Part shown: one piece after another, positions 3,944 through 25,635 of the stretch
Numbering within the stretch: the first letter of the stretch is position 1
Layout: each line of letters begins with the position of its first letter
Assembly (NCBI RefSeq): GCF_003841485.1
Contig: NZ_REFY01000005.1
Coordinates: forward strand, 124,001-188,000
DNA from: Natrarchaeobius halalkaliphilus
GTDB lineage: Archaea; Halobacteriota; Halobacteria; Halobacteriales; Natrialbaceae
Reading direction: 5' to 3'
Length of the DNA stretch: 64,000 nt
Notes under the pieces: generated by a model
What the model was told of the DNA's origin: nothing
Seen by the model: the letters and a program-made list of their open reading frames with translations, nothing else
Databases searched by the model: none
Position numbers and translations under genes: made by a program

Positions 3944-3964
3944 CTCTGCTCGTAGTCCGTGTGG

Positions 3965-8009: not shown

Positions 8010-8626
8010 ATGAACAGACCAGAACAGCAAATCGTTGACGGATACTCATACGTACTCCCGGCCAAGTACAGAGAAGCGCTCGACTCGCACACCAGCGATT
8101 CACACGTGGTCTCGGGGCTTCTCGGCTCTATTCCCCAACTCACCGACGTCGACCGCCGACTCGACTCATGGACGGATACGGCGTCGACGTCACCGTTCTG
8201 ACGCCAGCCAGTCCCCCGGTCGAGACGATCTCCGATCGCCACCGCCGTCGAACTCGCGCGAACGATGAACGAGGGCATCGTCCGGATCGCAACCGAACAC
8301 CTCGACAGGTTCGCCGGCGTCGCGACCGAGCCAATGAACGATCCGGACGCGATGATCGAAGAACTCGAGCGGGCCGTCACCGATCTCGACGTTCGGTTCG
8401 GTCCCAGCCCTCGAGTTCTTCGGCCCGGACAGGCTATTTTCGGGACTGACGCACCGTTTGACGTCGGTGGCGGTGCCGTCAGCATCGAACGATCCCTTAG
8501 GGAGTCGGGCAACTGGACGTCTCTGACGCCGACCGACGCCGAATTCACGGCGAGACGATATTCGGTCTACTCTCGTAGCGTCGCTGTCTCGAACGGTGCG
8601 AGGTGCGATCAAGGAGACCGAACCTG
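8010..8626 (+). pseudogene. Decayed amidohydrolase-2 gene, frameshifted and internally deleted
   Basis: The translated pieces match the intact gene at 18080-19123 but cannot be read in one frame. The opening MNRPEQQIVDGYSYVLP matches MNGGSDPTIDAYSHVVP, then the frame shifts near 8165 (MDGYGVDVTVLTPASP) and returns near 8240 (TAVELARTMNEG). Near 8390 the sequence jumps from AVTDLD directly to TFGSVPALEFFG, which in the intact protein lies about 150 residues further on, and another shift is needed to reach IFGTDAPFD. The middle of the barrel, with most metal ligands, is gone, and even the first metal His is Tyr (YSYV). The 3' end overlaps the stop of the FAH-family gene. Confidence 0.85.
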
Positions 8627-9491: not shown

Positions 9492-9746
9492 TTACGTTAC
9501 TCGACAAACGATACCGTCGCTTAAGAACACTTCCTCGGGCGAAACCTCAGTCGAGGCCACCACGCTACCGAACTTCGCGTCGATACGGTCGAGACTCCGT
9601 TCGCGTGCCTCGAGATCAGCGAAAGCGGTGCAGTCCGAAAGCACGGTCACCCGATAATTCCGATCGAACGCCGACCGGACGGTCGACTCGACGCAGACCT
9701 CAGTGATGGTCTCGCCGCCGAGCAGTCGCGAGACGTCGTTGCTCGA
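9492..9746 (-). pseudogene. Isochorismatase-like gene remnant (C-terminal part only)
   Basis: The minus strand encodes SSNDVSRLL, then TEVCVESTVRSAFDRNY and ERSLDRIDAKFG, nearly identical to the C-terminal third of the intact isochorismatase-like protein at 17374-17952. The catalytic Cys is kept. Local scrambling is visible (LLGGETITE against LLVGGIATE). The N-terminal part with the catalytic Asp and Lys is absent: upstream in the same frame the sequence is unrelated and runs into the 9817 gene. This is a truncated duplicate, paired with the decayed amidohydrolase at 8010. Confidence 0.82.
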
Positions 9747-9816
9747 GTGGCGTCTGAGCACCCGCGATCGATCGAAACGTCGGAAGTATGGATGTCGGAT
9801 CGGACGATCGGTGGAC

Positions 9817-10914
9817 TCACTCTCGCTCGAGAACGACGTGAGTCTCGGTGACGTCGACGACGGTTCCGTCGATGGACGCGTGATGATTGTTGCTGATCTC
9901 GTCTTCTGTTCTCCTGGCGACGACGTCGCCGGTGGAAACACGATCACCGGGCTCGACGACTGGATCGCCTGGGGTTACCAGTCCCTCGTAGGCGGCGTTG
10001 GTGATCAGCGGGATGGAAACCGTCTCGGGTTCGAGGACCGACGGCTGTGTTTCGTGGTCACGGTCGTTCCAGTCACGTTCCTCGAGCACGTTGATCCGGT
10101 CTTCTTGTTCCGTGTGTGCCTCGACGGTGGCCTCGTCGAGAACGAGTATCGCGTTCGTTCGCTTTCGGGTACCGAACGCAACTGGAGACTCGTCGATCGC
10201 GTAACTCCAGCCCGGTCCACCGTCCGCGAGAACGGCATCGCTCGGAAGCGCGTCCTCGGGGAGGTCGGCCGCCTCCAGAAGATCAGCAGCTGTCGTTCCG
10301 ACCGGAACGTCCAGACAGCGGTGCGCTGGCGTATCGCCTCCGACGTGAACGTATTTTCGAGTGACCGGAGTGTTCTCAGCGAGCGCGTTGTAGATATTCC
10401 ACAGCGTTTCGGTATTGTGAACGATCCAGCCGTGATCCGTCGGGAGATCCCGGCCGATCCGTTCGCCCGCCGCCATCATCAACAACACCTGCTCTTCGCT
10501 GAAGTCGTAGGTCTCTCCGGTGTACGCGAAGATGATCCCCGTTTCTCCGTCGAGATCCGGCGGTAGTTCGTCCTCGAGGTAGACGTCCGCGTCACAGGCC
10601 GTCTCGAACTCTTTCGTCCATTCGTCTCGGTACTTCTGTTTCGTCCCGACGACGATGCGCTCGAACAGATCGGCCTCGAGCATCGCGTCGAAAAACGCTG
10701 CGAGCTCCGCTGCGTGTTCCGTTCCGAGCCAGACGTCCGAGTAGTAGTTCGGCTCGCTTTCTTGGTGGTTGACGAGGAGTGAGTGGACGTCCTCCAGTTG
10801 CTCCCATTTCGCCCCGGATGGGAAACCCGCACCGCCAGCACCGGCGACTCCAGCTTCGTACAGTCGATCCGGAATCTTTCGAGGATCGAGCTCGATCGAG
10901 GTGTTCACTGCCAT
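9817..10914 (-). CDS. Complex I 51-kDa/RnfC-like flavin-NADH domain protein lacking Fe-S motifs
   Basis: A 365-residue protein. The N-terminal AGVAGAGGAGFPSGAKW (about residues 22-37) is the FMN/NADH-binding signature of NuoF, RnfC and PduS. An SLBB-like stretch follows near residues 190-245 (VHVGGDTPAHRCLDVPVGTT), and the C-terminus is a barrel-sandwich segment (GLVTPGDPVVEPGDRVSTGDVVA). Only two cysteines are present and there is no C-x2-C-x2-C motif, so it cannot carry the 4Fe-4S clusters of RnfC or NuoF. It is a single-gene unit. It may be an NAD(P)H:flavin module passing electrons to a partner, or a catalytically altered relative. The family assignment is good, the role unknown. Confidence 0.75.
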   Translation of the reverse strand: MAVNTSIELDPRKIPDRLYEAGVAGAGGAGFPSGAKWEQLEDVHSLLVNHQESEPNYYSDVWLGTEHAAELAAFFDAMLEADLFERIVVGTKQKYRDEWTKEFETACDADVYLEDELPPDLDGETGIIFAYTGETYDFSEEQVLLMMAAGERIGRDLPTDHGWIVHNTETLWNIYNALAENTPVTRKYVHVGGDTPAHRCLDVPVGTTAADLLEAADLPEDALPSDAVLADGGPGWSYAIDESPVAFGTRKRTNAILVLDEATVEAHTEQEDRINVLEERDWNDRDHETQPSVLEPETVSIPLITNAAYEGLVTPGDPVVEPGDRVSTGDVVARRTEDEISNNHHASIDGTVVDVTETHVVLERE

Positions 10915-11748: not shown

Positions 11749-12900
11749 ATGTACTCGCTCACAGATGAGCAACGATTGATCTTCTCTGAGTGTCGTCGGA
11801 TCGCGACCGAAGAATTTGCTCCGCGCGCGTTCACGTGGGACGACGAACCGCCGACGGAGAACGTCGAACTACTCGCAGACCTTGAACTCGTCGGTCTCAA
11901 TTATCCGATCGAGCTCGGGGGTGGGGGACTGTCGGAATTCGAGGTCTGTCTCCAGATCGAGGCGATCGGCCGAATCTGTCCGGACACCGCACAGAGCGTC
12001 TATCGCCGGTCGATGATCGCCCCCCGGGTAATCGAAATGTTCGGCTCCGAGTCGCTCAAAGAGGAGTACATTACGGATGTAACCGCTGGAGAGCGATCGA
12101 TCAGCGTTGCAATAAGTGAACCGCAGGCCGGAAGCGACGTTCAGAATATCGGAACGCAACTCGTCGAAGACGGGGACGGCTATCTCTTGACCGGTGAGAA
12201 AACCTGGATCACTCAGGGAGAAAGTGCGGATTCACTCGTCGTCTGGACGAGGCTTCCCGACTCGAACATGGGCGTTGTCGTCGTTGATACCGATCAGGCC
12301 GGCGTCGCACGGGAAACCGATTACACCAACATGGCCGGCGACACGCAGACACACTTCACCTTTAGTGAGGTTTCCGTCCCGGAATCACACGTTGTCGTTA
12401 GTGGGAAGAGCGGGTTCAAGCGTATGCTCCGCGCGCTCAACTGGGAGCGATGTGCCTCTGCGATGGGTTGTATCGCCATCGCGCTGTGTGCCTTCGATAC
12501 CGCGGTCGAGTATGCGAAGACACGTGAACAGTTCGGCCAGTCCATTTCTGAGTTCCAGGGACTTCGGTGGAAGTTCGCGGATATGGCGATGCAGATTCAG
12601 CTCGGACGAACGATGGTCTACAATACCGTTATCACCGCCGTAGAAAACGAGTGTCCGCCGAATCGACTGCAATCGTCAATCGCAGCGCTATATGCGACGG
12701 AGGTCTGCAACAACGTTGTCGACGAAGCACTTCAGATACACGGTGCCAACGGATATCAGCAGGGACATCCACTCGAGTACCTCTATCGGTTAGTTCGAGG
12801 GAAACGAATCGCGGCTGGAACCGACGAGATGCTCCGAAATACCATTGCGGATGCGGTGTTGGACGAGGGACTGGCCGATCTTCCCGATCTGATGAACTGA
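11749..12900 (+). CDS. Acyl-CoA dehydrogenase
   Basis: A full-length flavoenzyme of 383 residues. It has the N-terminal helical domain, the middle beta-domain signature ISEPQAGSDVQNIGTQ (about residues 123-138) and GEKTWITQG, then the C-terminal domain with TREQFGQSISEFQGLRWKFADM and the final QIHGANGYQQGHPLEYLYRLVR. The position holding the catalytic Glu in medium-chain enzymes (EGT) is Ala here (AAGTDE), as in members that use a Glu from another helix. It oxidises an acyl-CoA to the 2-enoyl-CoA. With the hydratase-lyase at 13111 and the ligase at 15519, a phenylpropanoyl-CoA substrate is plausible but inferred. Confidence 0.92.
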   Translation: MYSLTDEQRLIFSECRRIATEEFAPRAFTWDDEPPTENVELLADLELVGLNYPIELGGGGLSEFEVCLQIEAIGRICPDTAQSVYRRSMIAPRVIEMFGSESLKEEYITDVTAGERSISVAISEPQAGSDVQNIGTQLVEDGDGYLLTGEKTWITQGESADSLVVWTRLPDSNMGVVVVDTDQAGVARETDYTNMAGDTQTHFTFSEVSVPESHVVVSGKSGFKRMLRALNWERCASAMGCIAIALCAFDTAVEYAKTREQFGQSISEFQGLRWKFADMAMQIQLGRTMVYNTVITAVENECPPNRLQSSIAALYATEVCNNVVDEALQIHGANGYQQGHPLEYLYRLVRGKRIAAGTDEMLRNTIADAVLDEGLADLPDLMN

Positions 12901-12905
12901 GTCGG

Positions 12906-12910
12906 TTTTT
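12906..12910 (+). terminator. Probable U-tract terminator after the acyl-CoA dehydrogenase
   Basis: Five T residues begin six bases past the stop codon. Confidence 0.4.
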
Positions 12911-13110
12911 CGTAAGAGAGAACCGCGTTTACGACGGGCTTGGTTGCGAAGTCAGTAGCTGATCACGCTCAGTCCGAACGACCGCTGATCGCTGTCCGAC
13001 GGCATGTTTTGGGAAGTGAGACTGTCGGAGGAGTCCTATTTCCATCCAGAGTCGCGAGTTGCACAATCGGTAGTTATAGATGGGTACGGTTCCGTACAGA
13101 AAGTGGATTC

Positions 13111-13932
13111 ATGGAGTACGAGTACATCGAACTATCTGTTGAGGACGACGTGGGAAAGATCACACTCGATCGTGCGGAAAAGCGTAACGCGATCGTTCCC
13201 GAACTCGCATTGGAAGTAACGGATGCGCTCGAGCGAATCGAAGACGAGATCAGGGTTCTCGTGTTGGAGGGGAACGGATCGGCGTTCTGTGCCGGGATGG
13301 ACTTGGAAAAGCGATTCTACGAAACTCGCCAGGAAGGGCCGCGTGCGTTCTACGAGGCCGGACGGAAGACGGGATCAATGTTCACGACACTGTTCGACTA
13401 CAACCGACCGACCGTCGCGAAAATCGACGGCTGGACGTTCGGTGCGGGATACTGCTTGCAGGCGGTGTGTGACTTTGCCGTGACGACCGAGGAGTCGGTT
13501 TTTGGACTCTCGGAGATCAACTTCGGTATTATTCCGGGCGGCGGCGCGATGTGGGCAGCGGTCAACACGATGAACCGCAGAAAGGCGCTCTATTACACTT
13601 CGACTGGCGAATCGTTCACCGGGGCCACGGCGGAGGAACTGGGCGCTGTGACGACCGCCGTTCCGGAGGACAAACTCGAAGAAACTACCGACGAGCTCAT
13701 CGAGTCACTCGCAGAAAAGAACCCGATCGCAATGCAATTCAACACCGCTGTGCTCGAGCGTGTACGGTACATGGACTTCCACGAAGCGCTCGACTACGAA
13801 CGCGGAAAGAGCGAGGAGATGAAATATTATCAGCAAGACGAGTGGGTCGACGAGGGTATCGGCCAGTTCAAGGAGCGAGAGTACAAGCCGGGTCTCGAAT
13901 CGTACGACGAACAGTCCGAAGACTCCTCGTAG
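13111..13932 (+). CDS. Crotonase resembling hydroxycinnamoyl-CoA hydratase-lyase
   Basis: A 273-residue crotonase. Features match p-hydroxycinnamoyl (feruloyl)-CoA hydratase-lyase rather than ordinary enoyl-CoA hydratase: CAGMDLEKRFYE after the oxyanion loop, NGWCFGGGF-like DGWTFGAGY, GLSEINFGIIPGGG with Glu135, RKALYYTSTGESF, KNPIAMQF and the C-terminal YKPGLESY. The second hydratase Glu (as in rat Glu164) is replaced by Tyr. The known enzyme hydrates and cleaves feruloyl- or coumaroyl-CoA to acetyl-CoA and the aromatic aldehyde. Start at 13111 (MEYEYIE) is preferred over 12940 because the extension looks unlike protein. Aldehyde-oxidising enzymes are at 22564 and 33350. Confidence 0.8.
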   Translation: MEYEYIELSVEDDVGKITLDRAEKRNAIVPELALEVTDALERIEDEIRVLVLEGNGSAFCAGMDLEKRFYETRQEGPRAFYEAGRKTGSMFTTLFDYNRPTVAKIDGWTFGAGYCLQAVCDFAVTTEESVFGLSEINFGIIPGGGAMWAAVNTMNRRKALYYTSTGESFTGATAEELGAVTTAVPEDKLEETTDELIESLAEKNPIAMQFNTAVLERVRYMDFHEALDYERGKSEEMKYYQQDEWVDEGIGQFKEREYKPGLESYDEQSEDSS

Positions 13933-14129
13933 TCTCGCCCGAGAAACCGGGATCCGTCACCCGTATGCGTTTTTTCGAACGACTGACCGGTACTACCGTG
14001 TCAACTGAACTGATCTCCACATCGATCGCAGAGATCTCATTCGACCGGCTGTACCTCCGCGTTCGGTGCGTGCCGTCGCGAGTTCGACCCAGATAACGGT
14101 GTGATCTCTAAAAACGGGTGAACGAACGC

Positions 14130-15236
14130 TTACTCGAGGAACCGCCGGTCAACGAGGTCGTCTACCTCGATCACTTCGTCGATAAGTCCCGTTCGTTCCG
14201 CCAGATCGATCGATCGGCTGACGCGCTCGTCCGTGAGCATGTTCGACATGTCCGTTTCCCACATTTCGTCTTCCTGCGCCGCCTCGATGGTCTGTTCCCA
14301 GACCTCGATGTCGCCGGAGTCGTACGCAGGGAACTCAGCCGGCGAGTCGAAGATCATTTCCGCCAGCTCTTGCGGATCCGTCTCGTAGGCTTGCTCGTAC
14401 GAATTGGTCAATTCCTCGGCAATCGTCCGGTACACCTCCTCGTACTCGTTGAGTCTGTCATCGGTCGTTACCCACTGTGCGAGTGAGAGCGGTTCGGCGG
14501 CAACGTCGTCGTTGGGATTGTGGAACCACTGTGCGATATCACGTTCTTCGACGTCGATCGCTGCACTCGCAAACACGGTGGTTGCATCGACTTCTTCTTC
14601 TTCCATGGCCGAAATTCGGTTCGGTGTTCCTGCGATATAGCTGAGATCGAACGCCTCGGGGTCGCCTAACTGGGATTCTGCTGTCGCTCTGAGAGTGAGT
14701 GCGGAGAACGACTGTGGCGAATGGGCGGCGACCGGAGCACCCTCTAGTTCCTCCCAGGACTCGATGTCGGGTTGTGCGATGATCTGTTGTGAAAACTTCT
14801 GGTTCAGTTCCAGAAACGACGAAATCGGGAATCCTTCCCTGATCGAGTTGATGATCGCCGGCGGATTGGAGTAGCCGAGCTCGACTTCTCCGCTCACGAT
14901 TCCGGCTACCATCGCTGTGAAGCCGTTGAACACGACCGGTTCGATTTCAACGCCACGCGATTCCATCTCCTCGTTGAACAACGAGTACGTCGGAACACTG
15001 TATCCCGCCATCGCTGGCGACGGATGACCGATTCGGAGCGGATTCGGAATCTCGACTTCTCCCCCCATATCATCGTCCGATTGTTCATCGCCAATATCGT
15101 CACTTCCGGACGTGTCGCTGTCCGATGCACCGTTATCGTCGTCCCCGTTACCCATGCACCCGGCAAGCCCAACCGTAACGCCTGCACCAACTGTTTTGAG
15201 AATGGTTCGCCTCCCACTGCCAGTTCTATGTGGCAT
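14130..15236 (-). CDS. Orphan ABC substrate-binding lipoprotein (NMT1/SsuA-like)
   Basis: A receptor of 368 residues with a twin-arginine signal (SGRRTILKTVGAG), lipobox (LAGCMG) and a long Asp/Ser linker. The mature part has NGFTAMVAGIVSGEVELGY and a FSALTLRATAE segment, and ends VDDLVDRRFLE. It belongs to one subfamily with 35576-36652 (same DDLVDRRFL ending) and 45094-46173. No permease or ATPase lies next to it. It is divergent from the acyl-CoA ligase at 15519, and two ATCAT-type palindromes (15233-15249 and 15327-15348) lie in that region. Its ligand may be the acid activated by the ligase, but this is inference. Confidence 0.87.
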   Translation of the reverse strand: MPHRTGSGRRTILKTVGAGVTVGLAGCMGNGDDDNGASDSDTSGSDDIGDEQSDDDMGGEVEIPNPLRIGHPSPAMAGYSVPTYSLFNEEMESRGVEIEPVVFNGFTAMVAGIVSGEVELGYSNPPAIINSIREGFPISSFLELNQKFSQQIIAQPDIESWEELEGAPVAAHSPQSFSALTLRATAESQLGDPEAFDLSYIAGTPNRISAMEEEEVDATTVFASAAIDVEERDIAQWFHNPNDDVAAEPLSLAQWVTTDDRLNEYEEVYRTIAEELTNSYEQAYETDPQELAEMIFDSPAEFPAYDSGDIEVWEQTIEAAQEDEMWETDMSNMLTDERVSRSIDLAERTGLIDEVIEVDDLVDRRFLE

Positions 15237-15249
15237 GATACCATCATGC
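15233..15249. promoter_or_regulatory. Inverted repeat over the receptor start codon
   Basis: GCATGAT and ATCATGC arms, seven perfect pairs with three bases between, cover the ATG (15234-15236) of the orphan receptor. It shares the CATGAT half-site with 15327-15348, suggesting an operator for a local regulator. Confidence 0.45.
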
Positions 15250-15326
15250 GCAACAGCCTATTTAACCATTTTGATTGATTACCATCAGTACTCTCTCTAA
15301 ATACTGACTTGACTTCCATTTCTACA

Positions 15327-15348
15327 TACATGATGCCTCAATCATGTA
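15327..15348. promoter_or_regulatory. Inverted repeat in the receptor/ligase divergent region
   Basis: TACATGAT and ATCATGTA arms, eight perfect pairs with six bases between. It lies 91 bases upstream of the receptor start and 171 bases upstream of the ligase, so it could control both. Confidence 0.45.
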
Positions 15349-15518
15349 CAGATATTAACGATCACTGGACTCGAGCCGGACTCGTCGATTCGTCACCCAC
15401 CTCTCGAACGAAAAGTTCTGGATATATAGGTGCAGTGACGAACGGGGGGTTCGATCGGATATCTTGATCGTCATCTATCGAACAAAACAGTGTAGTACCG
15501 CCACAATAATGGGACGTC

Positions 15519-17075
15519 ATGGGAACGAGATCGACCATCATCGACTCTCTGGTCCACGCGTCGACGTGGTATCCGGAGCGCGAAGCACTGGTTCAAGGGG
15601 AACAGGACGCTCGGCGTGCATACACGTATGGAGAACTCGAGGAGGAGAGTCGACAGTTTGCGAACGGGCTCCGAGATGCTGGTATCGAGGCCGGCGATCG
15701 AATCGTCTTTCTGAACCGAAGCGTCGTCGAGCACGCGGTTGCGTACTTCGGTGCCTTGCGTGCGGGGGCGATTCCGGCAACGATACACTTTCGAGAGTCT
15801 CCATCGACGATCCAATCGATGGTGGAGTCGGTTTCTCCGACGGCACTCGTGTTCCAGCCACAGCTACACGAAACGGCTGAACTCGTCCTGGAGACGTCGT
15901 CGACGATCACCGAATCGATCGTACTCGATCGGCTTGGAGAGGTTCCCACCTTCGCCAGACCGTACTCCGACGTTCTCGATGCACCTCCACAGGAGCTGCC
16001 GACCGTTTCCTCGTCGGATCGGGCGTTCATCAATTTCTCGTCCGGAACGACCGGTGTCCCCAAGCCGGTCGTCCACACACACGAGAACATCATCGAAAGC
16101 ACTCATCTCGCCTTCTTCAAAAAACAGATCGGCCCCGGTGACCGCACTCTTAAGACCAACACGCCGTCGTTTATCGCGTGGGCGAATACGACGTTTCCGT
16201 ACGTCAACGCCGGTGCCACGGTGGTGTTCCTCGAGCAGTCGGATCCGGTTGCGATACTCGAGGCGATCGACGCAGAACGGATCACGTCGCTGATTCTGGT
16301 TCCGACGATCTGGAAGCGAATCCTCGCTGAAGATCTCGAGCAGTACGACCTCGAGTCGATACGAACGGCCGGCTACTCCGGAGAGCCGCTCGATCCGGGA
16401 TTGTTCGCACGGATCAAAGCGGAGGTCACACCCAACATCTGTACGATGTACGGGACGACCGAGACGATGTCGTCGTCGATGACGCTCTTCCCCGACGATG
16501 TCGACGAGGATACGCTGGACAGCGTCGGGTATCCCGTGCCGGACACCGACGTTCGTATCATCGAACCCGATAGCCGGGATCCCGATCGACAGGTCGACCG
16601 CGGTGACACTGGTGAGATCATCGTCCGCGGACCGTCGGTGGCAGAGGAGATCTGGAACGATCCGGAGCGAACGCGGGCGACGTTCCACGAGGATGGCTGG
16701 CTCTTTACGGGCGATCTCGGCTACGTCGGCGAGGATCGGCTGCTGTACCTGCGCGGCCGCCACGATAACATGATCATCAGCGGCGGGATCAACATCTACC
16801 CCGAGAAAGTAAACGAGGTGCTCGGTTCCTGGGACGAGATCGCGGATTCGGCGGTCATCGGCGTCCCACACGATACCTGGGGCGAAACCGTGACCGCGAT
16901 CGTCGTTCCCCGAGACGAGTCGGTAACCGAGGAGGACGTAAAGTCCGTCTGTGCGGAGTCGCCAGACCTGGCGGACTACCAGCAGCCGCGACTGGTACGG
17001 TTCGTCGACGAGTTGCCCAAGACGGGAACGAGCAAGATCGACTACGCCGCGCTCAGGGAGCGTTTCGCGGAGTGA
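15519..17075 (+). CDS. Acyl-CoA synthetase (AMP-forming, class I adenylating enzyme)
   Basis: A full-length acyl- or aryl-CoA ligase of 518 residues. Motifs in order: the AMP-binding P-loop NFSSGTTGVPKPVVHTHEN (about residue 168 on), MYGTTETM, the hinge region TGDLGYVGED then GRHDNMIISGGINIYPEKV, and the C-terminal catalytic Lys in LPKTGTSKIDY. It makes an acyl-adenylate from ATP and a carboxylic acid and then the CoA thioester. Residues before the P-loop Lys read P-K-P rather than the common P-K-G. The neighbouring hydratase-lyase suggests a hydroxycinnamate substrate; other aryl or fatty acids are possible. The start ATG at 15519 is the first in frame. Confidence 0.9.
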   Translation: MGTRSTIIDSLVHASTWYPEREALVQGEQDARRAYTYGELEEESRQFANGLRDAGIEAGDRIVFLNRSVVEHAVAYFGALRAGAIPATIHFRESPSTIQSMVESVSPTALVFQPQLHETAELVLETSSTITESIVLDRLGEVPTFARPYSDVLDAPPQELPTVSSSDRAFINFSSGTTGVPKPVVHTHENIIESTHLAFFKKQIGPGDRTLKTNTPSFIAWANTTFPYVNAGATVVFLEQSDPVAILEAIDAERITSLILVPTIWKRILAEDLEQYDLESIRTAGYSGEPLDPGLFARIKAEVTPNICTMYGTTETMSSSMTLFPDDVDEDTLDSVGYPVPDTDVRIIEPDSRDPDRQVDRGDTGEIIVRGPSVAEEIWNDPERTRATFHEDGWLFTGDLGYVGEDRLLYLRGRHDNMIISGGINIYPEKVNEVLGSWDEIADSAVIGVPHDTWGETVTAIVVPRDESVTEEDVKSVCAESPDLADYQQPRLVRFVDELPKTGTSKIDYAALRERFAE

Positions 17076-17344
17076 CGTGAGTTCCCGACCGAAGCGTATA
17101 CTGCCGCGAAAACGCGCTGCTACGAGTCACCAAGCGCGTGATAGCTAGCACGCGTCTCCGATCGGGCCTCGAGACTACCGTAACGACTCGTAGGCGTCCG
17201 GATCGGCCCACCGTTTCGGATACGAGTGATCGTGCTCGGTCCATGTGATGACGTCACAATCAGACACGGTGATAGTTGCGATCGTACTGGCGAATACCGA
17301 CGGTCGTCCGTGGGTGATCCGCCTCGATTCCGCTGACGGTACAA

Positions 17345-17350
17345 TTATAC
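17345..17350 (+). promoter_or_regulatory. TATA-like box for the isochorismatase-like gene
   Basis: TTATAC 29 bases upstream of the ATG at 17374, the spacing of a leaderless promoter. It supports 17374 over the in-frame ATG at 17245. Confidence 0.55.
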
Positions 17351-17373
17351 GCGGTCGACACGGAATCGACGCC

Positions 17374-17952
17374 ATGATCAGCGATCCGGCGCTCGTACTG
17401 ATCGACGTACAGGCGCAGTTCTGTGACCCCGAGTACGGCTACATTCCCGAGGCGGAAGCCGAGACGATCGAGGAGCGAATCGAGTCCGCTAACGAGTTAG
17501 TGGGGCGGTATCGAGAGAGCGGGCGACAACCGATCTTCGTCAGGGTGGTTCACGACGAGCGGGCGACGTCGCCCGTCTGGTCCGATAAATACGGCGACGG
17601 ACCGCTTCCGTGTGCGCCGGGAAGCGACGGCGCGGCGTTCGACTCCGCGCTCGACGTCCGCGAGGACGACGCGATCGTCACCAAACACCGCTACGACGCG
17701 TTTCACGAAACCGATCTGGAGGTGTACCTCTCGAGCAACGACGTCTCGCGGCTGCTCGTCGGCGGTATCGCGACCGAGGTCTGCGTCGAGTCGACCGTCC
17801 GGTCGGCGTTCGATCGCGACTACCGAACGACCGTGCTTTCGGACTGTACTGCGTCTGCGGATCCCGTTGCGCGCGAACGCAGCCTCGAGCGTATCGACGC
17901 CAAATTTGGTGAAGTAAAGCCCTCTACAGAAGTCTCCCTTGGAGTCGACTGA
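17374..17952 (+). CDS. Isochorismatase-family cysteine hydrolase
   Basis: A 192-residue cysteine hydrolase with the complete triad: Asp11 (LIDVQAQF), Lys104 (TKHRYDAF) and Cys137 (GIATEVCVES). Family members hydrolyse isochorismate, N-carbamoyl compounds, nicotinamide or other amides. The gene is followed 127 bases downstream by an amidohydrolase on the same strand. A decayed copy of the same two genes is found at 8010-9746, so the pair seems to be a functional unit. The other intact member at 36924 is much more divergent. Substrate unknown. Confidence 0.87.
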   Translation: MISDPALVLIDVQAQFCDPEYGYIPEAEAETIEERIESANELVGRYRESGRQPIFVRVVHDERATSPVWSDKYGDGPLPCAPGSDGAAFDSALDVREDDAIVTKHRYDAFHETDLEVYLSSNDVSRLLVGGIATEVCVESTVRSAFDRDYRTTVLSDCTASADPVARERSLERIDAKFGEVKPSTEVSLGVD

Positions 17953-18079
17953 GACGATCGATTCCCGTCGGAGACCGCCGACTCGAACCTACTCGCTGTT
18001 CTACAATAGTGTCGGTATCGTCCTGTCAGATAATACATCGCAGCGACACAGTCATGTGGCGTGGACGAAAACCTGGCGT

Positions 18080-19123
18080 ATGAACGGTGGATCAGATCCG
18101 ACGATCGATGCCTATTCGCACGTCGTTCCGAGCGAGTACAAAACCGCCCTCGAATCGTACACAGGATCGTCGTATACGATCTCGGACCTTCACGACGCGA
18201 TTCCGACGCTGACGGACGTCGAGAGACGGCTGACGACCATGGACGAGTGTGGAGTCGACGTCGACGTACTCGTTCCCGCGAGTCCCGCCGTCGAGACGGT
18301 CGCGGACCACCGCGGTGCTGTCGAACTGGCTCGAACCATGAACGATGGGATCGCTCGAATCGTCGACGAATACCCCGATCGATTCGCCGGTGTCGCGACG
18401 GTTCCGATGAACAACCCTGAGGCGATGGTCGACGAACTCGAGCGTGCAGTTACCGACCTGGGGCTTTGTGGTGCGCTGATCTACTCGAACGTGGACCGCA
18501 GACCGGCGGACGAACCACATCTCGACGGAGCGGGTCGCCCGATCGACGGACCGGAGTTTGACCCCTTCTACGAGATGGCTGCGGCGCTCGACGTTCCGCT
18601 GTGGCTTCATCCGGCCCGACCGAAGACGACGCCCGAATACGTCGGTGAACCGACCTCGAAGTACCTCGTCTGGCAAATGTTCGGCTGGCCGTTCGAGCTC
18701 AGCGCGGCGATGGCCCGGATGGTCTTCGGCGGTGTGTTCGATCGCCACCCAGAACTGGACGTGATAGCCCACCACGCGGGCGGGATGATCCCATTGTTGA
18801 CGGGGCGGATGGACGTCCACTACGACCTGTTCGAAACGTTTTCCGGGACGGATCTAACGGACCATCTCTCGAGTCCGTACAGCGATCAGTTCCGTCGGTT
18901 CTACGTCGATACCGCGACGTTCGGATCCGTCCGTGCACTCGAGATGGCGATCGAATTTTTCGGCGTCGACCACGTTCTGTTCGGAACCGATGCGCCGTTC
19001 GATACGTCGGAGGGCCGACGCTGTCGCAATCGATGTCGGAAAGCCCTCGACGCAGCCGACCTGTCCGAACGCGACCGTCAGCGTATCTCTGGAGGGAACG
19101 TTCGAACGTTGATCGGTGACTGA
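18080..19123 (+). CDS. Amidohydrolase-2 family protein
   Basis: A 347-residue TIM-barrel protein of the ACMSD-like superfamily. The N-terminus reads TIDAYSHVVP: the second metal His is present while the first position of the H-x-H pair is Tyr. WLHPARP, IAHHAGGMIP and VLFGTDAPFD supply later conserved residues. The family includes non-hydrolytic decarboxylases and hydratases of aromatic and ring-cleavage acids. The start at 18080 is preferred over 17939, whose extension overlaps the upstream gene and looks non-coding. It is probably paired with the isochorismatase. The stop codon directly abuts the palindromic repeat at 19125-19203. Confidence 0.87.
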   Translation: MNGGSDPTIDAYSHVVPSEYKTALESYTGSSYTISDLHDAIPTLTDVERRLTTMDECGVDVDVLVPASPAVETVADHRGAVELARTMNDGIARIVDEYPDRFAGVATVPMNNPEAMVDELERAVTDLGLCGALIYSNVDRRPADEPHLDGAGRPIDGPEFDPFYEMAAALDVPLWLHPARPKTTPEYVGEPTSKYLVWQMFGWPFELSAAMARMVFGGVFDRHPELDVIAHHAGGMIPLLTGRMDVHYDLFETFSGTDLTDHLSSPYSDQFRRFYVDTATFGSVRALEMAIEFFGVDHVLFGTDAPFDTSEGRRCRNRCRKALDAADLSERDRQRISGGNVRTLIGD

Positions 19124-19124
19124 T

Positions 19125-19203
19125 ACCGGCTCCTGTAAGTCATTTTGGTACAACTGCAAGACGGATCGCGGTCGTACCGGTAAATCGTTACAGCAGACCG
19201 TGT
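19125..19203. repeat. About 80-bp palindromic intergenic repeat, copy A
   Basis: Imperfect inverted termini: CTGTAAGTCAT near the left end pairs with the reverse of TAAATCGTTACAG near the right, and the outer ends are ACCGG/ACCGTGT. The right half is closely shared with copy B (35484-35565). All three copies are 79-82 bp long and lie at 3' ends of genes. Confidence 0.6.
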
Positions 19204-19283
19204 GACACCGGTGTACATCTCTATTTGAGTCGACTACCTCCCGACGTATACGCCTCTGGAAAGCGATGTGTGAAACATCTCAG

Positions 19284-19306
19284 AATACACACCCTAAGTG
19301 TGTATT
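19284..19306. promoter_or_regulatory. Perfect inverted repeat upstream of TRAP operon
   Basis: AATACACAC and GTGTGTATT arms, nine perfect pairs with a five-base spacer CCTAA. The central 17 bases are identical to 11281-11297. It is a candidate operator for the TRAP transporter, about 100 bases upstream of the likely promoter. Confidence 0.5.
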
Positions 19307-19481
19307 TATCTGTGGTGTGCACGTGGATACGATTGGGTGAACGTGAACCGTCGGACAGTCTGGCGATTTGTCCGATCTATATCTGTTCGTCTTGTCGGCT
19401 GGTGTCTTATTAATCTTCTCCTATCGGCAATAGGATCCACTACGTTAGATGTTATCAATCATCCCTGCAGAGAACCAAACG

Positions 19482-20546
19482 ATGACGTTCAGAGAGAGCA
19501 ATTCACAGGGGTCTGGTACGCGTCGATCGTTCTTACGGAACGCAGGTGCTGTCGGCGCTCTCGGGTCGTTGGGAGCTCTATCGGGGTGTCTGGGTGACGA
19601 GGAAGAAGGCGGTGCGGACAACCAGTACACCTTCGGAGCTGGGCCGTCGGATTCGATGTCGTTCGCGATGGCCAACCAGTTTGCACACAACCTCGAGAGC
19701 AATTCCGACCACACTGTCGATTTGACGTCCCAGCCGAGTTCGCAGGCGCTGTCGCTCGTTCTGGGCGGTGAGAACGAGATGGCCTGGGCGACGTCGTTTA
19801 TCGGCCAGCAAGCTGCTGATGCCGAAGGACCGTTCGCTGACGTCGAGATGAACTACACGCCGATGCAGATCATGTCCTATTACTACATGCGGATCGGGTT
19901 AGTCGCGCCCGTCGATTCCGATCTAGAGTATTACAGCGATCTGGCAAACGAGGACTTCGCCCCCGGACCGGCTGGCGCGTCGTTTTATCCTCCCTTCGAG
20001 ATGGCTCTTCAAGAAACACTCTCGGAGGACGATATTTCTCCGCGACATATGGACGTCTCCGAGTTAGCTGATGGTCTCGCCGAGGAACGAGCGGTCGCGG
20101 CCGGTGGCCCACTGAAAATGAACGCTATTATTCCTGCGTTCATGGAGCAGACGTACTCCCAGAACGACTGTCGGCTCCTCGCGTGGGACGACGATGCCAT
20201 CGATGGGATTCAGAGTAACCCGATGTTGAGCGGCGTATACGAGTCGAACGACGAGATGGGCGACATCCAGGAATTCACGTCGTCCGACGAGACGTTCGTC
20301 GTTTCCGCAGACTTCATCGTCTTCGGTTCGGAACAAGTGTCCGCTGACGTCGTCTACGAGATGCTCGATACGCTGTGGAACGCTCGAGACGAACTGGAGG
20401 AGGGACACGCTGCGTTCGCGCCGTTCCACGACGACGAGTTCTGGGTGGAGAACCTGACAACCGAGCTTCCCGTCCATCCTGGAGCTGCTGATTTCTTCGA
20501 AGAACACGGAATCTGGAACGACGACTTCGAAGTCGGTGAGGTCTGA
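19482..20546 (+). CDS. TRAP transporter solute receptor, TAXI family
   Basis: An extracytoplasmic receptor of about 354 residues. The twin-arginine signal (TRRSFLRNAGAVGALG) and lipobox (LSGCLG) precede an acidic linker. The mature part begins QYTFGAGPSDSMSFAMANQFAHNL, the TAXI pattern of a glycine-rich opening followed by a helix, and ends with a long acidic tail. It is 29 bases upstream of the fused TRAP permease, so the two form one transporter. Two starts are possible: 19449 or 19482 (MTFRESN). I prefer 19482 because it gives the usual short n-region before the RR pair. The ligand is likely a dicarboxylate or aromatic acid. Confidence 0.88.
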   Translation: MTFRESNSQGSGTRRSFLRNAGAVGALGSLGALSGCLGDEEEGGADNQYTFGAGPSDSMSFAMANQFAHNLESNSDHTVDLTSQPSSQALSLVLGGENEMAWATSFIGQQAADAEGPFADVEMNYTPMQIMSYYYMRIGLVAPVDSDLEYYSDLANEDFAPGPAGASFYPPFEMALQETLSEDDISPRHMDVSELADGLAEERAVAAGGPLKMNAIIPAFMEQTYSQNDCRLLAWDDDAIDGIQSNPMLSGVYESNDEMGDIQEFTSSDETFVVSADFIVFGSEQVSADVVYEMLDTLWNARDELEEGHAAFAPFHDDEFWVENLTTELPVHPGAADFFEEHGIWNDDFEVGEV

Positions 20547-20575
20547 ACTGGCGGTATTTCGTCTTGAATACTACT

Positions 20576-22507
20576 ATGAGTTCAATCCGATCGAACGCAG
20601 AGCGGAGTTTACGCGGAGTGATACTGCTGTTGGCCGTTGGCTTGTCGACGTGGGTTATCGTCTTCGCCTACAGCGGGGAGTTCATTCCTCGCCAACAACA
20701 CGCGAACATCGTGTTGGGATTGGGGCTCTCGGTCTACTACTTCAACAACGCTCAGAACCTGATTCAACGCGAGTCGCTCGAGCGACGCGAACGAATCTCG
20801 CTCGGAATCTCGCTGCTGTTCGGAATCGCGATCCTGGCGTTGACCGCTTACGTTCACCTCCATTACTACCGCTGGCTCGAATCCGGACGGCTACTCGTCT
20901 ATACCGATCTCGATCTGCTCATCGGCGTCGGTATCATCACGATCGTCATCGACGCAACGTTCAGAAAGTACGGAACGATCCTCGGAATGGTGATCCTCTT
21001 CGTCATCGGCTACGGCTACTTCGGTCAGTATTTCCCCGGCGTTCTCTCTCATTCGGGGTTAACCGTCGAGCAGATCATCCGCCGGCAAACCATCAACATG
21101 ACGGGGATTTACGGCTTCCTCCTCCAGGTCGGTGCCACCTGGATCGCGATCTTCATCATCTTTGCCGGGCTCGTCGAGGGCCATCGTGGGTTCGATTTCA
21201 TTCTCGACTTCGGTGAACGAGTCGCGAAACATTCGAAGAACGCGGTCGTCCAGACTGCCGTCGTCTCCAGTATGATAATGGGAACGATGATGGGGAGTTC
21301 GGCGTCGAACGTGGCGACGACTGGCTCGTTCACCATCCCGCTCATGAAAGACAGGGGTGTGCCGCCGAAGCTGGCCGGCGCGATCGAGTCCGTCGCGAGT
21401 ACGGGCGGACAGATCCTCCCACCGATCATGGGGACCGCAGCGTTCATCATGGCGGACATCATCAACGTACCGTTCGCTGAGATCGCCGTCGCGGGATTGA
21501 TTCCCGCCGCGCTGTTCTACCTGTCGGTGGTCCTGTCGATTCACTTCATCATGGTGAAAAAGGACATCATCGGCTCCAGCGGGATCGACTTCGATTCCCC
21601 TGACGACGAGTCGCTGAGTTCGTCTCGAGAGCTCGCAATCATGGGCGTTCAGTACGTCGTCCCGCTGGGAGTTCTCGTCTACGTACTGATGATCCAGCAG
21701 GTCAGTCCGATGGCAGCCGGCATCTCGTCTATCGGTGCGCTCTTGATCACCCGGTTCGTCTTTTTGGCACCGAAACGGGAGGGAAAACAGTTCGTTACGG
21801 ACACGATCGACGGCCTGGAGAAAGGAGGGAAGAACCTGGCACCGTTCATGGCCATCCTCGCGTCGCTCGGAATCGTCATCAACATCATCACGGTCACCGG
21901 ACTGGCACAGCGGATTGCGACCCAGCTCATCGCGATCTCGGGGGGTCAGCTGTTGATCTTTCTGGTGCTGGCGATGATCGTGAGTCTCCTGTTCGGGCTG
22001 GGTATGCCGACGCCCGCCGCCTACGTTCTCGTGGCGACGATCATCGCACCCGAACTCGTCTCGCTGGGTGTGCCACAGCTATCCGCTCACCTCTTCGTGT
22101 TCTACTTCGCGCTGCTGTCCGCGATCACGCCGCCGGTCGCCCTCGCCGTTGCGATCGCGTGTAATATCTCGCACACGGATTTCCTCGCGACGACCAAACA
22201 GGCGCTCGTAATCGGTGCGGTCGCGTTTATCATCCCGTATATCTTCGTCTTCAACAACGAGATCATCTTCGTGAGCGTCTCGGAAACCGTGCCGACGCTG
22301 TTGCTCCTCGTCGTCGCTATCTGGATGCTCACCAGTGCGATCGTCGGACACAACGGACTCGCTCGCATCTCGAGCGTCGAGCGTGTCGTTGGTGTGTTCG
22401 TCTTCGGATTGCTGGCGTTTCAGGCGACCCTCCTTACGATCACGCTCGGACTGGGTATCTTCCTCGTCGCGACGGTCGGGATGCAAAAACGAGACGTCGT
22501 TCTCTGA
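20576..22507 (+). CDS. TRAP transporter fused membrane subunit (DctQM type)
   Basis: A 643-residue polytopic protein in which the small 4-helix part (roughly residues 15-175) is fused to the large 12-helix part, the usual arrangement in TRAP-TAXI systems. The conserved large-subunit segment MMGSSASNVATTGSFTIPLMKDRGVPPKLAGAIE is visible near residues 240-270, followed by GQILPPIMGTAAF, and LGMPTPAAYVL near the second repeat. It performs sodium- or proton-driven uptake of the ligand delivered by the receptor at 19482. The ATG at 20576 is preferred over the TTG at 20564. Confidence 0.92.
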   Translation: MSSIRSNAERSLRGVILLLAVGLSTWVIVFAYSGEFIPRQQHANIVLGLGLSVYYFNNAQNLIQRESLERRERISLGISLLFGIAILALTAYVHLHYYRWLESGRLLVYTDLDLLIGVGIITIVIDATFRKYGTILGMVILFVIGYGYFGQYFPGVLSHSGLTVEQIIRRQTINMTGIYGFLLQVGATWIAIFIIFAGLVEGHRGFDFILDFGERVAKHSKNAVVQTAVVSSMIMGTMMGSSASNVATTGSFTIPLMKDRGVPPKLAGAIESVASTGGQILPPIMGTAAFIMADIINVPFAEIAVAGLIPAALFYLSVVLSIHFIMVKKDIIGSSGIDFDSPDDESLSSSRELAIMGVQYVVPLGVLVYVLMIQQVSPMAAGISSIGALLITRFVFLAPKREGKQFVTDTIDGLEKGGKNLAPFMAILASLGIVINIITVTGLAQRIATQLIAISGGQLLIFLVLAMIVSLLFGLGMPTPAAYVLVATIIAPELVSLGVPQLSAHLFVFYFALLSAITPPVALAVAIACNISHTDFLATTKQALVIGAVAFIIPYIFVFNNEIIFVSVSETVPTLLLLVVAIWMLTSAIVGHNGLARISSVERVVGVFVFGLLAFQATLLTITLGLGIFLVATVGMQKRDVVL

Positions 22508-22563
22508 TCCGACGGGGTCGTCCGATACTACATTTCACCGTCCACTCTCACCGGTCGCTCGAG

Positions 22564-24021
22564 TTACTTGTCGAAGACCGTCCCGTCCGATTCCCCGAGG
22601 GAGACGACGACGTTTTTGAGTTGCGTGTAGTGATCGATCGCCTGGATCCCCTTTTCCCTGCCGAGCCCGCTCTTTTTGTATCCCCCGAACGGTGCCTGCG
22701 GGAACGTCGCGGGGAACTCGTTGATCGCGACGGTTCCGGCTTCGAGACCGTTTGCGACCCGATGGCCGCGATCGAGCGTGTCGGTCCACACCGCCGCGTA
22801 GAGACCGTACTCGGTGTCGTTCGCGCGTCGAATGACCTCGGTTTCGTCCGAAAATTCGTACAGCGTGATGACCGGTCCGAACACCTCTTCACACGAGATG
22901 GGCGCATCGTCGTCGACCGAATCGATGAGCGTCGGCTCGAAGTAATTCCCGTTCCGTTCGACGACGCTACCGCCGGTCAACACCCGCGCACCGTCCGCTT
23001 TCGCCGTCGAGACGTACTCCTCGATGTCGTCTAGCGCGTCGGCCGAGATCACCGGACCGATGTCGTGGCCGTCGATTCCGGGACCGATCGACATCGACTC
23101 CGTCGCCGCCGCGAGCCGGGACGTGAACTCGTCGTAGATTTCCTCGTGAACGAAGACGCGCGTCGTGGCGAAACAGACCTGCCCGCTGTTGAAAAACACC
23201 TTCAGCGTGTCCTCGATCGCGGCGTCGAGATCAGCGTCTTCGAAGACGATACTCGGGCTCTTGCCGCCCAGCTCGAGCGAAACGGGTATGACGTTCTCCA
23301 TCGCCGCTTTTCCGACCATGGTTCCGCCCGTGACCGATCCGGTAAACGTGATCTCGTCGATCCGGGGATCCTCGGTCAGGGTGGCTCCGGTCCGCGATCC
23401 CGGACCGGGAACGACGTTGAACAACCCCTCCGGTATCCCCGCCTCCGTGGCGAGCTCTGCGAATTTGAGCACGGAGAGCGGCGCTTCCGAGGACGGTTTG
23501 GCGACGACCGCGTTTCCTGCCGCCAGTGCGGGGACGATGCCGCGTATTCCCAGCATGACCGCGGCGTTCCACGGGATGATCTGTGCGCTCACGCCGAGGG
23601 GCTCTTTCTGCGTGTAATCCAATCGATTTCCATCGACCGGAATCGTTTCCCCCTGGATCTTGTCACAGAGTCCACCGTAGTACTCGAAGTAGCCGAGTCC
23701 GTCCGTGATGATTCCGTTCGATTGTCCGATCGGTCGCCCCATCTCCAGGCTCTCGAGTTCTGCAAGCTCGTCGACCGAGTCGGTAAGACGCTCGCCGACG
23801 CGTCGGAGCACGCGACCACGTTCGGATGCGTCGAGTGCCGCCCACTCGCGTTGTGCCTCTCGAGCGGTTTCGATGGCGTCGTCGACGGTTTCCTCGTCTG
23901 CGATCCCGACGGTCGCGATCGTCTCGCCGGTCGAGGGGTTTTCGATGTCGAACGTCTCGGCCGCGCTTCGATACTCGCCGTTGATAAACGGTCCTGTGTC
24001 GTCGGCTGCTGGCGATGCCAT
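22564..24021 (-). CDS. NAD(P)-dependent aldehyde dehydrogenase
   Basis: A full-length aldehyde dehydrogenase of 485 residues. It has the substrate channel Asn region (IIPWNAAVML), the cofactor loop (GSVTGGTMVGKAA), the general-base Glu in LELGGKSP, and the catalytic Cys in FFNSGQVCFATTR. The C-terminal PFGGYKKSGLGREKG is also present. It oxidises an aldehyde to the acid. Next to a hydratase-lyase-like crotonase, vanillin- or hydroxybenzaldehyde-type substrates are an attractive inference, since this subfamily includes such enzymes. It is convergent with the TRAP permease and divergent from the amidohydrolase at 24185. Confidence 0.92.
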   Translation of the reverse strand: MASPAADDTGPFINGEYRSAAETFDIENPSTGETIATVGIADEETVDDAIETAREAQREWAALDASERGRVLRRVGERLTDSVDELAELESLEMGRPIGQSNGIITDGLGYFEYYGGLCDKIQGETIPVDGNRLDYTQKEPLGVSAQIIPWNAAVMLGIRGIVPALAAGNAVVAKPSSEAPLSVLKFAELATEAGIPEGLFNVVPGPGSRTGATLTEDPRIDEITFTGSVTGGTMVGKAAMENVIPVSLELGGKSPSIVFEDADLDAAIEDTLKVFFNSGQVCFATTRVFVHEEIYDEFTSRLAAATESMSIGPGIDGHDIGPVISADALDDIEEYVSTAKADGARVLTGGSVVERNGNYFEPTLIDSVDDDAPISCEEVFGPVITLYEFSDETEVIRRANDTEYGLYAAVWTDTLDRGHRVANGLEAGTVAINEFPATFPQAPFGGYKKSGLGREKGIQAIDHYTQLKNVVVSLGESDGTVFDK

Positions 24022-24161: not shown

Positions 24162-24184
24162 CTCCACTAGCGATAGCTGCTATC

Positions 24185-25276
24185 ATGGCATCGTTTACCG
24201 TTACGGATGCGGATGCACACTATCTAGAAGACTTGAGTCGATTATCGGAGTATCTCGAGGACGACAATCCCTGGAAAGGACGGTTCGGGGGGGACTCGAA
24301 GGACAACCGAGAGGACATCGGTAGCGTCCCGGTCAACATCTTCCCCGCGAGTACCGGATCTAGAAACCTGTACGGACGGATTCAGCGCGACGAGGTCTCT
24401 TATCCCGGCGAGGAGATGTCGGGCGAGGACGTGCCGCGGATCATGGCCCACCTCGGCCTCGACAACTGCGTGCTCCTCTCACAGAAGATGCTGACGTTCG
24501 CCCGGCTTAAGGCGGACGACGAGCGGGCGAACGTCCTCGCAAAGACGTACACGGAGTACATGCTCGACGAGATCGTCGACCCCGACGAGGGCGTCTACAC
24601 GATGATTCCGGTCCCGTGGCAGGATCCCGAGTACGCCGTTGAACTCCTCGACGAGTACGGCGACGAGAAGGGAATCTGCGGTGCGTGTATGATCACGGGC
24701 GGCGCAGAACCGCCGATGGGCAATCGCAAGTACGATCCAATTTACGAGATCGCAGAAAAGAAAGATCTCGCCATCAACTTCCACACCGGCGGCGGTGGCC
24801 TCGACGAGTTCCACCAGAAGGGCTACGAGAAGTTCATCGAAACCCACACGCTGGGCTTCCTCTACAACAACGCCTCACAGATCGTCAGCGTCGTCGTCCA
24901 GGGCGTTCCCGAGAAGTTCCCCGACCTGAAGATCGCGTTCCAGGAGTCGGGGCTGTTCTACGTTCCGACCGTCATGCATCGTCTCGATGCCGAGTACCTC
25001 AAACGACAGTCCGAGGCTCCGCTGCTCGAGAAGCGCCCGAGCGAGTACATGCAGGAGTTCTACTACGGAATCCAGCCGATGGAGCTTCCCGAAAAAGAGG
25101 AGTACCTAGAGCAGATCATCGAGATGATCGGCGGCCCGGACCGACTGATGTACGCGTCTGACTACCCACACTGGGACTACGACCGTCCCTCCGTGATCAC
25201 GGAGCGCCCGTTCCTCGACGACGACGAGAAACGGCGCATTCTCTCGGGTACCGCCGAGGAGGTGTTCGGAATATGA
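24185..25276 (+). CDS. Amidohydrolase-2 family protein
   Basis: A 363-residue ACMSD-like barrel protein. Its opening TVTDADAHYLED has Asp in place of the first metal His, a pattern found in many aromatic-acid decarboxylase-like members. AINFHTGGG and MYASDYPHWDYD are also present. The usual HH-x-GG ligand after strand five is replaced by FQESGLFY, so the metal site differs from the other amidohydrolases in the window. It overlaps the Rieske gene by four bases (ATGA), so translation is coupled. A combined function with a Rieske protein is unusual and suggests a ring-modifying step, but this is inference. Confidence 0.87.
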   Translation: MASFTVTDADAHYLEDLSRLSEYLEDDNPWKGRFGGDSKDNREDIGSVPVNIFPASTGSRNLYGRIQRDEVSYPGEEMSGEDVPRIMAHLGLDNCVLLSQKMLTFARLKADDERANVLAKTYTEYMLDEIVDPDEGVYTMIPVPWQDPEYAVELLDEYGDEKGICGACMITGGAEPPMGNRKYDPIYEIAEKKDLAINFHTGGGGLDEFHQKGYEKFIETHTLGFLYNNASQIVSVVVQGVPEKFPDLKIAFQESGLFYVPTVMHRLDAEYLKRQSEAPLLEKRPSEYMQEFYYGIQPMELPEKEEYLEQIIEMIGGPDRLMYASDYPHWDYDRPSVITERPFLDDDEKRRILSGTAEEVFGI

Positions 25277-25635
25277 GCTCCACCCACGTGGGATCGGTCG
25301 ACGAGTTCGAACACGGGGATCGGAAAATCACCACCGTCGACGGCGCATCCGTCGGCGTCTTCTGTGTCGACGGCGAGTTCTATGCCCTCGAAAACGAGTG
25401 TCCACACCAGGGTGGACCCGCCTGCACCGGGCGCGTCGGCGGCGAAATCGTCGCGGAGATTCCCGAGCCCGGAAAACGAAAGCAAGAGCGGATCTCTGAC
25501 GATCTGGTCGTCGCCTGTCCGTGGCACGGCTGGGAGTTCGAAATCGAAACGGGAATCCACCTGGGCGACGATAGCATCTGCCTCGATCAGTTCGATGTCG
25601 TCGTCGAGGACGACGAAGTGTACGTGACCGGCTGA
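25273..25635 (+). CDS. Small Rieske [2Fe-2S] protein
   Basis: A 120-residue soluble Rieske domain. Cluster ligands are Cys43/His45 (ECPHQGG) and Cys82/His85 (CPWHGWEF). The segment between the two ligand pairs is 36 residues, longer than the usual 16-20, with an inserted charged loop (EPGKRKQERISDD). No signal or membrane segment is seen. It resembles the ferredoxin component of ring-hydroxylating dioxygenases or the small subunit of nitrite reductases. It is translated from an ATGA overlap with the amidohydrolase and followed by an FMN oxidase. It could carry electrons for either neighbour. Confidence 0.9.
   Translation: MSSTHVGSVDEFEHGDRKITTVDGASVGVFCVDGEFYALENECPHQGGPACTGRVGGEIVAEIPEPGKRKQERISDDLVVACPWHGWEFEIETGIHLGDDSICLDQFDVVVEDDEVYVTG

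Follow-up and report, generated by a model that had tools for sequence, protein, structure and literature searches.

Can a haloarchaeon cleave phenylpropanoid side chains by the lyase type of reaction, which is known mainly from bacteria? The question is raised by a 64-kb stretch of the Natrialbaceae genome of Natrarchaeobius halalkaliphilus, a soda-lake archaeon (contig 5, positions 124001-188000; this whole stretch is called the window, and coordinates are those of the window unless a contig or locus is named). From its sequence a crotonase gene at 13111 had been predicted to encode a hydroxycinnamoyl-CoA hydratase-lyase (HCHL) within a ferulate/coumarate degradation set that also comprised an AMP-forming ligase, an acyl-CoA dehydrogenase, an aldehyde dehydrogenase (ALDH) and a transporter. 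Our answer, to which we give slightly better than even chances, is that the crotonase and the ligase form a two-enzyme unit for side-chain cleavage of an arylpropenoic acid, whose ring would carry an anionic or accepting group at its far end and whose products would pass to the surrounding catabolic island. The two genes are:

13111-13932, forward strand: HCHL-clade crotonase of 273 amino acids (profiles, PDB matches, tree and approximately unbiased (AU) test)
15519-17075, forward strand: AMP-forming acyl-CoA ligase (nearest PDB entries 8weu and 8wev, feruloyl-CoA synthetase)

Phylogenetic position of the crotonase

The best curated model for the 13111 protein is NF006588 (p-hydroxycinnamoyl-CoA hydratase/lyase), matched with 274.6 bits (E = 7e-82), against a curated cut-off of 276 bits, and with a margin of 146 bits over the next family (128.6 bits). 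The HCHL-type proteins of four other haloarchaeal genomes, N. chitinivorans, G326, G078 and G305, reach 275.4, 279.3, 274.3 and 267.2 bits, respectively; that of G326, which is 76% identical to the 13111 protein, exceeds the cut-off. The top twelve PDB sequences are all HCHL-type chains (162-176 bits; the following one 118.8 bits), eleven of them named HCHL or feruloyl-CoA hydratase/lyase and one, 6p5u, deposited as enoyl-CoA hydratase. The four motifs quoted in the original prediction begin at residues 106, 134, 160 and 258.

A maximum-likelihood tree of 32 sequences places 13 bacterial HCHLs (mainly plasmid-borne) in one clade (support 100/100) and the five haloarchaeal proteins in another (92/89), both being united in a joint clade with support 99/97. 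Forcing the haloarchaeal five into a group with ordinary haloarchaeal enoyl-CoA hydratases was rejected (AU test, p = 9e-6). Monophyly of the five is favoured, yet alternatives stand at p = 0.05 and 0.16. As the original prediction required, the 13111 protein by this phylogeny sides with the bacterial HCHLs and not with ordinary archaeal hydratases, and we assign its gene to the haloarchaeal part of the HCHL clade. The gene is rare: it was found in 5 of the 391 Halobacteria genomes sampled, namely in 3/125 of its own family and in 1/170 and 1/146 of two other families (the sets overlap).

Active site and substrate pocket

Residues of the 13111 protein bear its own numbers, and the positions with which they are matched bear those of the Pseudomonas enzyme. 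With the HCHL of Pseudomonas fluorescens (PDB 2J5I, 2VSS, 2VSU) and bacterial Ech/FerB the 13111 protein shares, besides the clade and an acyl-CoA ligase partner, the catalytic Glu143 (E135), Met70 in the oxyanion-hole region (M63) and the KPGLxxY tail. The second Glu of hydratases is gone, as had been noticed before, with C115 at the position of Ser123 and E135 left as the single Glu. The protein, a member of a haloarchaeal sister branch, differs further from these bacterial enzymes by Ala112 in place of Gly120, by GAG instead of GGG in the oxyanion-hole loop, and by a feature that the original prediction overlooked: arginine at both phenol-binding tyrosine positions, R68 for Tyr75 and R231 for Tyr239. 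Both positions align without gaps, beside the anchors AGMDL and DY.

The Arg/Arg pair is likewise present in N. chitinivorans and G326 and is therefore kept in three genomes at identities down to 76%; it occurs in 0/13 bacterial and 0/2 other haloarchaeal sequences. At position 75 each of the 13 bacterial HCHLs has Tyr or Phe, and G078 and G305 have Tyr. The proteins of the latter two, which belong to the same larger clade and are 48-49% identical to the 13111 protein, differ from it by this tyrosine and by Leu at position 239.

In Pseudomonas HCHL, Tyr75 and Tyr239 reportedly hold the 4-hydroxyl of the substrate (structure described by Bennett and co-workers in 2008). Since these two tyrosines have given way to R68 and R231, the ring of the native substrate most likely bears at its far end a group that is anionic or a strong acceptor (phenolate, carboxylate or similar). 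Since the far end of the pocket would now fit an anion or a strong acceptor, we place the protein in the HCHL clade but do not name it a p-hydroxycinnamoyl-CoA hydratase-lyase. Ordinary ferulate and coumarate are probably not what the enzyme acts on in nature; they are possible substrates, not indicated ones. An AlphaFold2 model built from two sequences (predicted local distance difference test, pLDDT, 31.6) was not used.

The family assignment in itself is not new, as the NCBI model automatically names the G326-type protein. New are the Arg/Arg subclade, its pocket and its island.

The ligase partner and the proposed route

In all three Arg/Arg genomes the 15519 ligase belongs with the 13111 enzyme. 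The two genes stand head-to-head, 213 bp apart in N. chitinivorans and about 160 bp apart in G326, and among 382 haloarchaeal genomes a ligase of this type (E <= 1e-110) was found in four only, the three with the Arg/Arg HCHL and G370, which has a 44% relative. An AMP-forming ligase adjoins or neighbours the HCHL gene in 5/5 haloarchaeal genomes, those of G305 and G078 being different ligases. The ligase of the original prediction is upheld by this linkage and by its closest structure, a feruloyl-CoA synthetase.

Clade, residues and gene linkage are observed directly; the route built on them would run as follows. An arylpropenoic acid would be imported by an ABC (ATP-binding cassette) or TRAP (tripartite ATP-independent periplasmic) receptor and, judging from the family of the 15519 protein, activated by it to the CoA ester. 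The 13111 crotonase, as its clade and active site suggest, would hydrate the ester and then, in a retro-aldol reaction that relies on its single Glu, split off acetyl-CoA and leave an aromatic aldehyde. In Natrarchaeobius saturated arylpropanoic acids may be fed in by the acyl-CoA dehydrogenase. An ALDH, encoded in the island or elsewhere, would oxidize the aldehyde, and the ring would be handled by enzymes of the island, namely the flavin hydroxylase, the decarboxylase-type amidohydrolases, the extradiol dioxygenase and the FAA hydrolases.

Some points weigh against this reading. Position 239 varies even among bacterial proteins that are annotated as HCHL (Y, V, I, L, F, T), and for this reason the Tyr239 change is the weaker evidence, the Tyr75 change alone appearing as a clean departure. 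In addition, the island holds a complete beta-oxidation set, so that lyase chemistry is not required.

The aldehyde dehydrogenase and an AibH2-like oxygenase

The ALDH of the original prediction is a real gene. Its constant neighbours are an oxygenase gene and a Rieske ferredoxin gene, not the HCHL gene; the three are:

22564-24021, reverse strand: ALDH, BADH-like, transcribed away from the oxygenase pair at 24164
24164-25276, forward strand: AibH2-like amidohydrolase-related dinuclear oxygenase (PF04909 match; seven metal-site residues)
25273-25635, forward strand: small Rieske ferredoxin (4-bp overlap with 24164-25276)

The ALDH and oxygenase genes are separated by 142 bp. The nearest PDB sequence of the 24164 protein is 6m1w_B; the best four matches (148-110 bits) are AibH2 and other amidohydrolase-related dinuclear oxygenases, and decarboxylases score at most 38 bits. 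The seven metal-site residues named for AibH2 (PMC7782822), D25, H27, H211, E265, D337, H340 and D342, are all identical in the 24164 protein; alignment to AibH2 did not reveal this set in the proteins 18083, 29990 and 1079. An overlapping arrangement of oxygenase and small Rieske ferredoxin has been used to find such dinuclear oxygenases (PMC10811679). We regard the 24164 protein as a candidate dinuclear oxygenase of the AibH2/SfbO type and not as a hydrolase of the usual kind. It resembles AibH1H2/AibG and SfbO (PMC7782822, PMC10811679) in the metal-site residues and the overlapping Rieske gene, and differs from them in being haloarchaeal, in being encoded by a single oxygenase gene and in lying beside an ALDH in an aromatics island.

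N. chitinivorans and G326 likewise have the oxygenase-Rieske pair together with a divergent ALDH, and no ALDH was found in the 20-kb stretches around the HCHL genes of G078 and G305. Together with the 7/7 conserved metal-site residues this speaks for a second explanation, which has only slightly less than even chances, that the ALDH (and the TRAP transporter) form a separate system, unrelated to HCHL, in which the oxygenase and the Rieske protein make the aldehyde or alcohol that the ALDH oxidizes. The triad, on the other hand, lies within about 26 kb of the HCHL gene in 3/3 Arg/Arg genomes, and one pathway could use both. This explanation concerns the gene set and not HCHL, and is compatible with the cleavage unit of crotonase and ligase; the ALDH may serve the oxygenase, HCHL or both.

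Further AibH2-like/Rieske pairs were seen in N. chitinivorans (C2:73648-75020, 77770-79160 and 119360-120816), G305 (locus L021, 3228-4946) and G326 (C4:253742-255132). The seven residues are kept in four copies of the pair and 6/7 in N. chitinivorans 78090; the G326 copy is unreadable in the frame used. An alternative aldehyde oxidizer in the island is an aldehyde:ferredoxin oxidoreductase-like gene (33350-35227, reverse strand), 93% identical in N. chitinivorans.

Acyl-CoA dehydrogenase, importers and the ferulate/coumarate pathway

The remaining members of the predicted set and their neighbours are:

2210-6114: ABC importer, with permeases 2227-3042 and 3119-3943 (both reverse strand), candidate receptor 3965-5065 (reverse strand) and ATPase 5170-6114 (forward strand)
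9817-10914, reverse strand: RnfC/NuoF-like electron-transfer protein, linked to acyl-CoA dehydrogenase/HCHL in N. chitinivorans
11749-12900, forward strand: acyl-CoA dehydrogenase (Ala356 where the catalytic Glu usually stands; Glu233 at the site of the isovaleryl-CoA-dehydrogenase type)
14130-15236, reverse strand: NMT1/SsuA-type Tat (twin-arginine translocation) lipoprotein receptor of an ABC importer, between crotonase and ligase
17245-17952, forward strand: isochorismatase-family cysteine hydrolase, linked in N. chitinivorans
19449-22507, forward strand: TAXI receptor (19449-20546) and fused TRAP permease (20564-22507), conserved in N. chitinivorans

The acyl-CoA dehydrogenase gene is real and is linked to HCHL in Natrarchaeobius, in the window and in N. 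chitinivorans. Its family is a common one (51/382 haloarchaeal genomes), and elsewhere it is not HCHL-linked. The idea of a dead enzyme was dropped: the usual Glu is replaced by Ala356, yet Glu233 occupies the isovaleryl-CoA-dehydrogenase-type position, both positions presumably being catalytic sites in their respective enzymes. Its identity as 3-sulfinopropanoyl-CoA desulfinase was ruled out (251.6 bits, cut-off 600).

Of the dedicated transporter the TAXI/TRAP genes stand, being kept in N. chitinivorans, where they lie about 20-24 kb from the HCHL gene; G326 and G078 lack a close TRAP relative, and G305 offers no more than a 40% relative at another place in its genome. The first 40 kb had suggested that N. 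chitinivorans has no linkage of ALDH and TRAP with HCHL, which was wrong, the orthologues of both being some 21-24 kb away. The NMT1-type receptor between crotonase and ligase had been overlooked; it adjoins HCHL in N. chitinivorans also, and a related receptor does so in G326. A 3' fragment of the isochorismatase gene 17245 (9492-9774, reverse strand; 82% over 181 nt) marks the other end of a segment that is inverted relative to N. chitinivorans. The isochorismatase adjoining the G078 HCHL is a different one.

A full ferulate/p-coumarate pathway, in which ligase, acyl-CoA dehydrogenase, HCHL, ALDH and TRAP transporter would lead via vanillin or 4-hydroxybenzaldehyde to the corresponding benzoate, is in our estimate improbable. 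The HCHL clade and motifs agree with it, as do the closeness of the ligase to feruloyl-CoA synthetase and the ALDH and TRAP orthologues, which in N. chitinivorans, too, are within about 25 kb of HCHL; an Arg could also stabilize a phenolate. Against it stand the replacement of both tyrosines by Arg, the pairing of the ALDH with the oxygenase instead of HCHL, the missing TRAP orthologue in G326 and the acyl-CoA dehydrogenase, which is unlinked outside Natrarchaeobius; moreover, neither an O-demethylase nor a VanAB-type oxygenase was recognized among the scanned genes. Ferulate or coumarate as the substrate is the part of the original prediction that finds no support. The degradation set holds in so far as its genes are real, the crotonase falls in the HCHL clade with a ligase beside it and the surroundings are those of aromatic catabolism; to call its members the exact steps was too strong in view of the links of the ALDH, acyl-CoA dehydrogenase and TRAP genes.

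The aromatics island

In outline the surroundings of the two genes are those of a catabolic island for aromatics (meta-cleavage), reaching well beyond the 11749-24021 segment of the original prediction. The window as a whole is largely conserved in N. chitinivorans (C2:83-150 kb); protein identities mostly lie at 70-97%, and gene order differs by one large inversion and by smaller ones around HCHL. Within 16 kb of the G326 HCHL lie two ALDHs (about 46-51%), a flavin hydroxylase (67%), a decarboxylase-type amidohydrolase (73%) and a BNR protein (77%). Among the genes of the island are:

8609-9385, reverse strand: FAA-hydrolase family protein, HpaG C-terminal-like
18083-19123, forward strand: Amidohydro_2 decarboxylase-type protein (nearest PDB entry 3ij6, then gamma-resorcylate decarboxylase), without the dinuclear ligand set
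29990-32792, forward strand: Amidohydro_2 decarboxylase-type protein and FAD aromatic hydroxylase (orthologues 73% and 67%, within 13 kb of the G326 HCHL)
51939-52847, forward strand: extradiol (catechol 2,3-type) dioxygenase, ligands H148/H211/E262 kept
61164-61955, forward strand: second FAA-hydrolase family protein

The 51939 protein is filed only as extradiol-type, and not as a catechol 2,3-dioxygenase, because it fails TIGR03211 (151 bits, cut-off 320). A second extradiol paralogue, 52% identical to it, lies just upstream of the window (C5:122561-123454), and three such paralogues surround the corresponding island of N. chitinivorans. The window lacks a counterpart of the short-chain dehydrogenase/reductase found in the N. 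chitinivorans locus.

The island also carries CoA-transferases, a thiolase, two enoyl-CoA hydratases and a 3-hydroxyacyl-CoA dehydrogenase. These stand in a conserved beta-oxidation block (37644-49452), in which the CoA-transferases form a pair and which includes an NMT1 receptor and an HMG-CoA-synthase-like protein with a ChsH2-type zinc ribbon. That the 13111 protein is a plain hydratase, or has another crotonase chemistry, in a CoA-dependent beta-oxidation of an aromatic or alicyclic acid with the 3-hydroxyacyl-CoA dehydrogenase (39944-40819), enoyl-CoA hydratases and thiolase of this conserved island is conceivable, Haloferax D1227 degrading cinnamate and phenylpropionate (PMC4005966), but unlikely, as two ordinary enoyl-CoA hydratases are already there, the protein is without the second Glu on which hydratases rely, and its gene is tied to the ligase in all Arg/Arg genomes and lies at least 20 kb away from the beta-oxidation genes.

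Relation to known systems and meaning

The neighbourhoods of the G078 and G305 HCHLs, with an AMP ligase near as in the window, are otherwise different (nitrile hydratase, amidase and thiamine pyrophosphate (TPP) decarboxylase in the one; amidases and CoA-transferase in the other). The G078 locus (L020, 171-10457) comprises HCHL, a nitrile hydratase alpha subunit, an amidase, the ligase, a benzoylformate-decarboxylase-like TPP enzyme, a major facilitator superfamily transporter and the isochorismatase; these neighbours suggest that the G078 enzyme has a different substrate.

The actinobacterial phd/cou pathway is CoA-dependent and employs an amidohydrolase (PhdB/CouO) as retro-Claisen hydrolase. 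Like the window it has ligase, acyl-CoA dehydrogenase, crotonase and an amidohydrolase in one cluster; the window differs by its HCHL-type crotonase. Haloarchaeal breakdown of phenylpropanoid acids is known from Haloferax sp. D1227, which degrades cinnamate and phenylpropionate and was reported with a gentisate 1,2-dioxygenase (PMC4005966); no HCHL is described there. In the literature searched, no description of an archaeal HCHL route was found, and the genome paper on Natrarchaeobius makes no mention of aromatics.

A more specific proposal, which we put forward as a long shot, is that the Arg68/Arg231 subclade is a re-specialized HCHL that cleaves arylpropenoyl-CoA esters with a carboxylate or other anion on the ring, that the decarboxylase-type amidohydrolases later strip that group, and that the triad of AibH2-like oxygenase, Rieske protein and ALDH treats another ring substituent. 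If the proposal is true, the Arg/Arg route would be a haloarchaeal path for lignin- or humic-derived aromatics, and we know of no bacterial counterpart to it.

With the linked pairs of AibH2-like oxygenase and Rieske protein, a group of metalloenzymes that was defined very recently would extend to haloarchaea. The 13111 protein is a possible salt-tolerant enzyme for aldehyde production, and the rare haloarchaeal HCHL branch, with its ligase partner, its rewritten specificity pocket and its conserved island, offers a test case for the evolution of specificity in the HCHL family.

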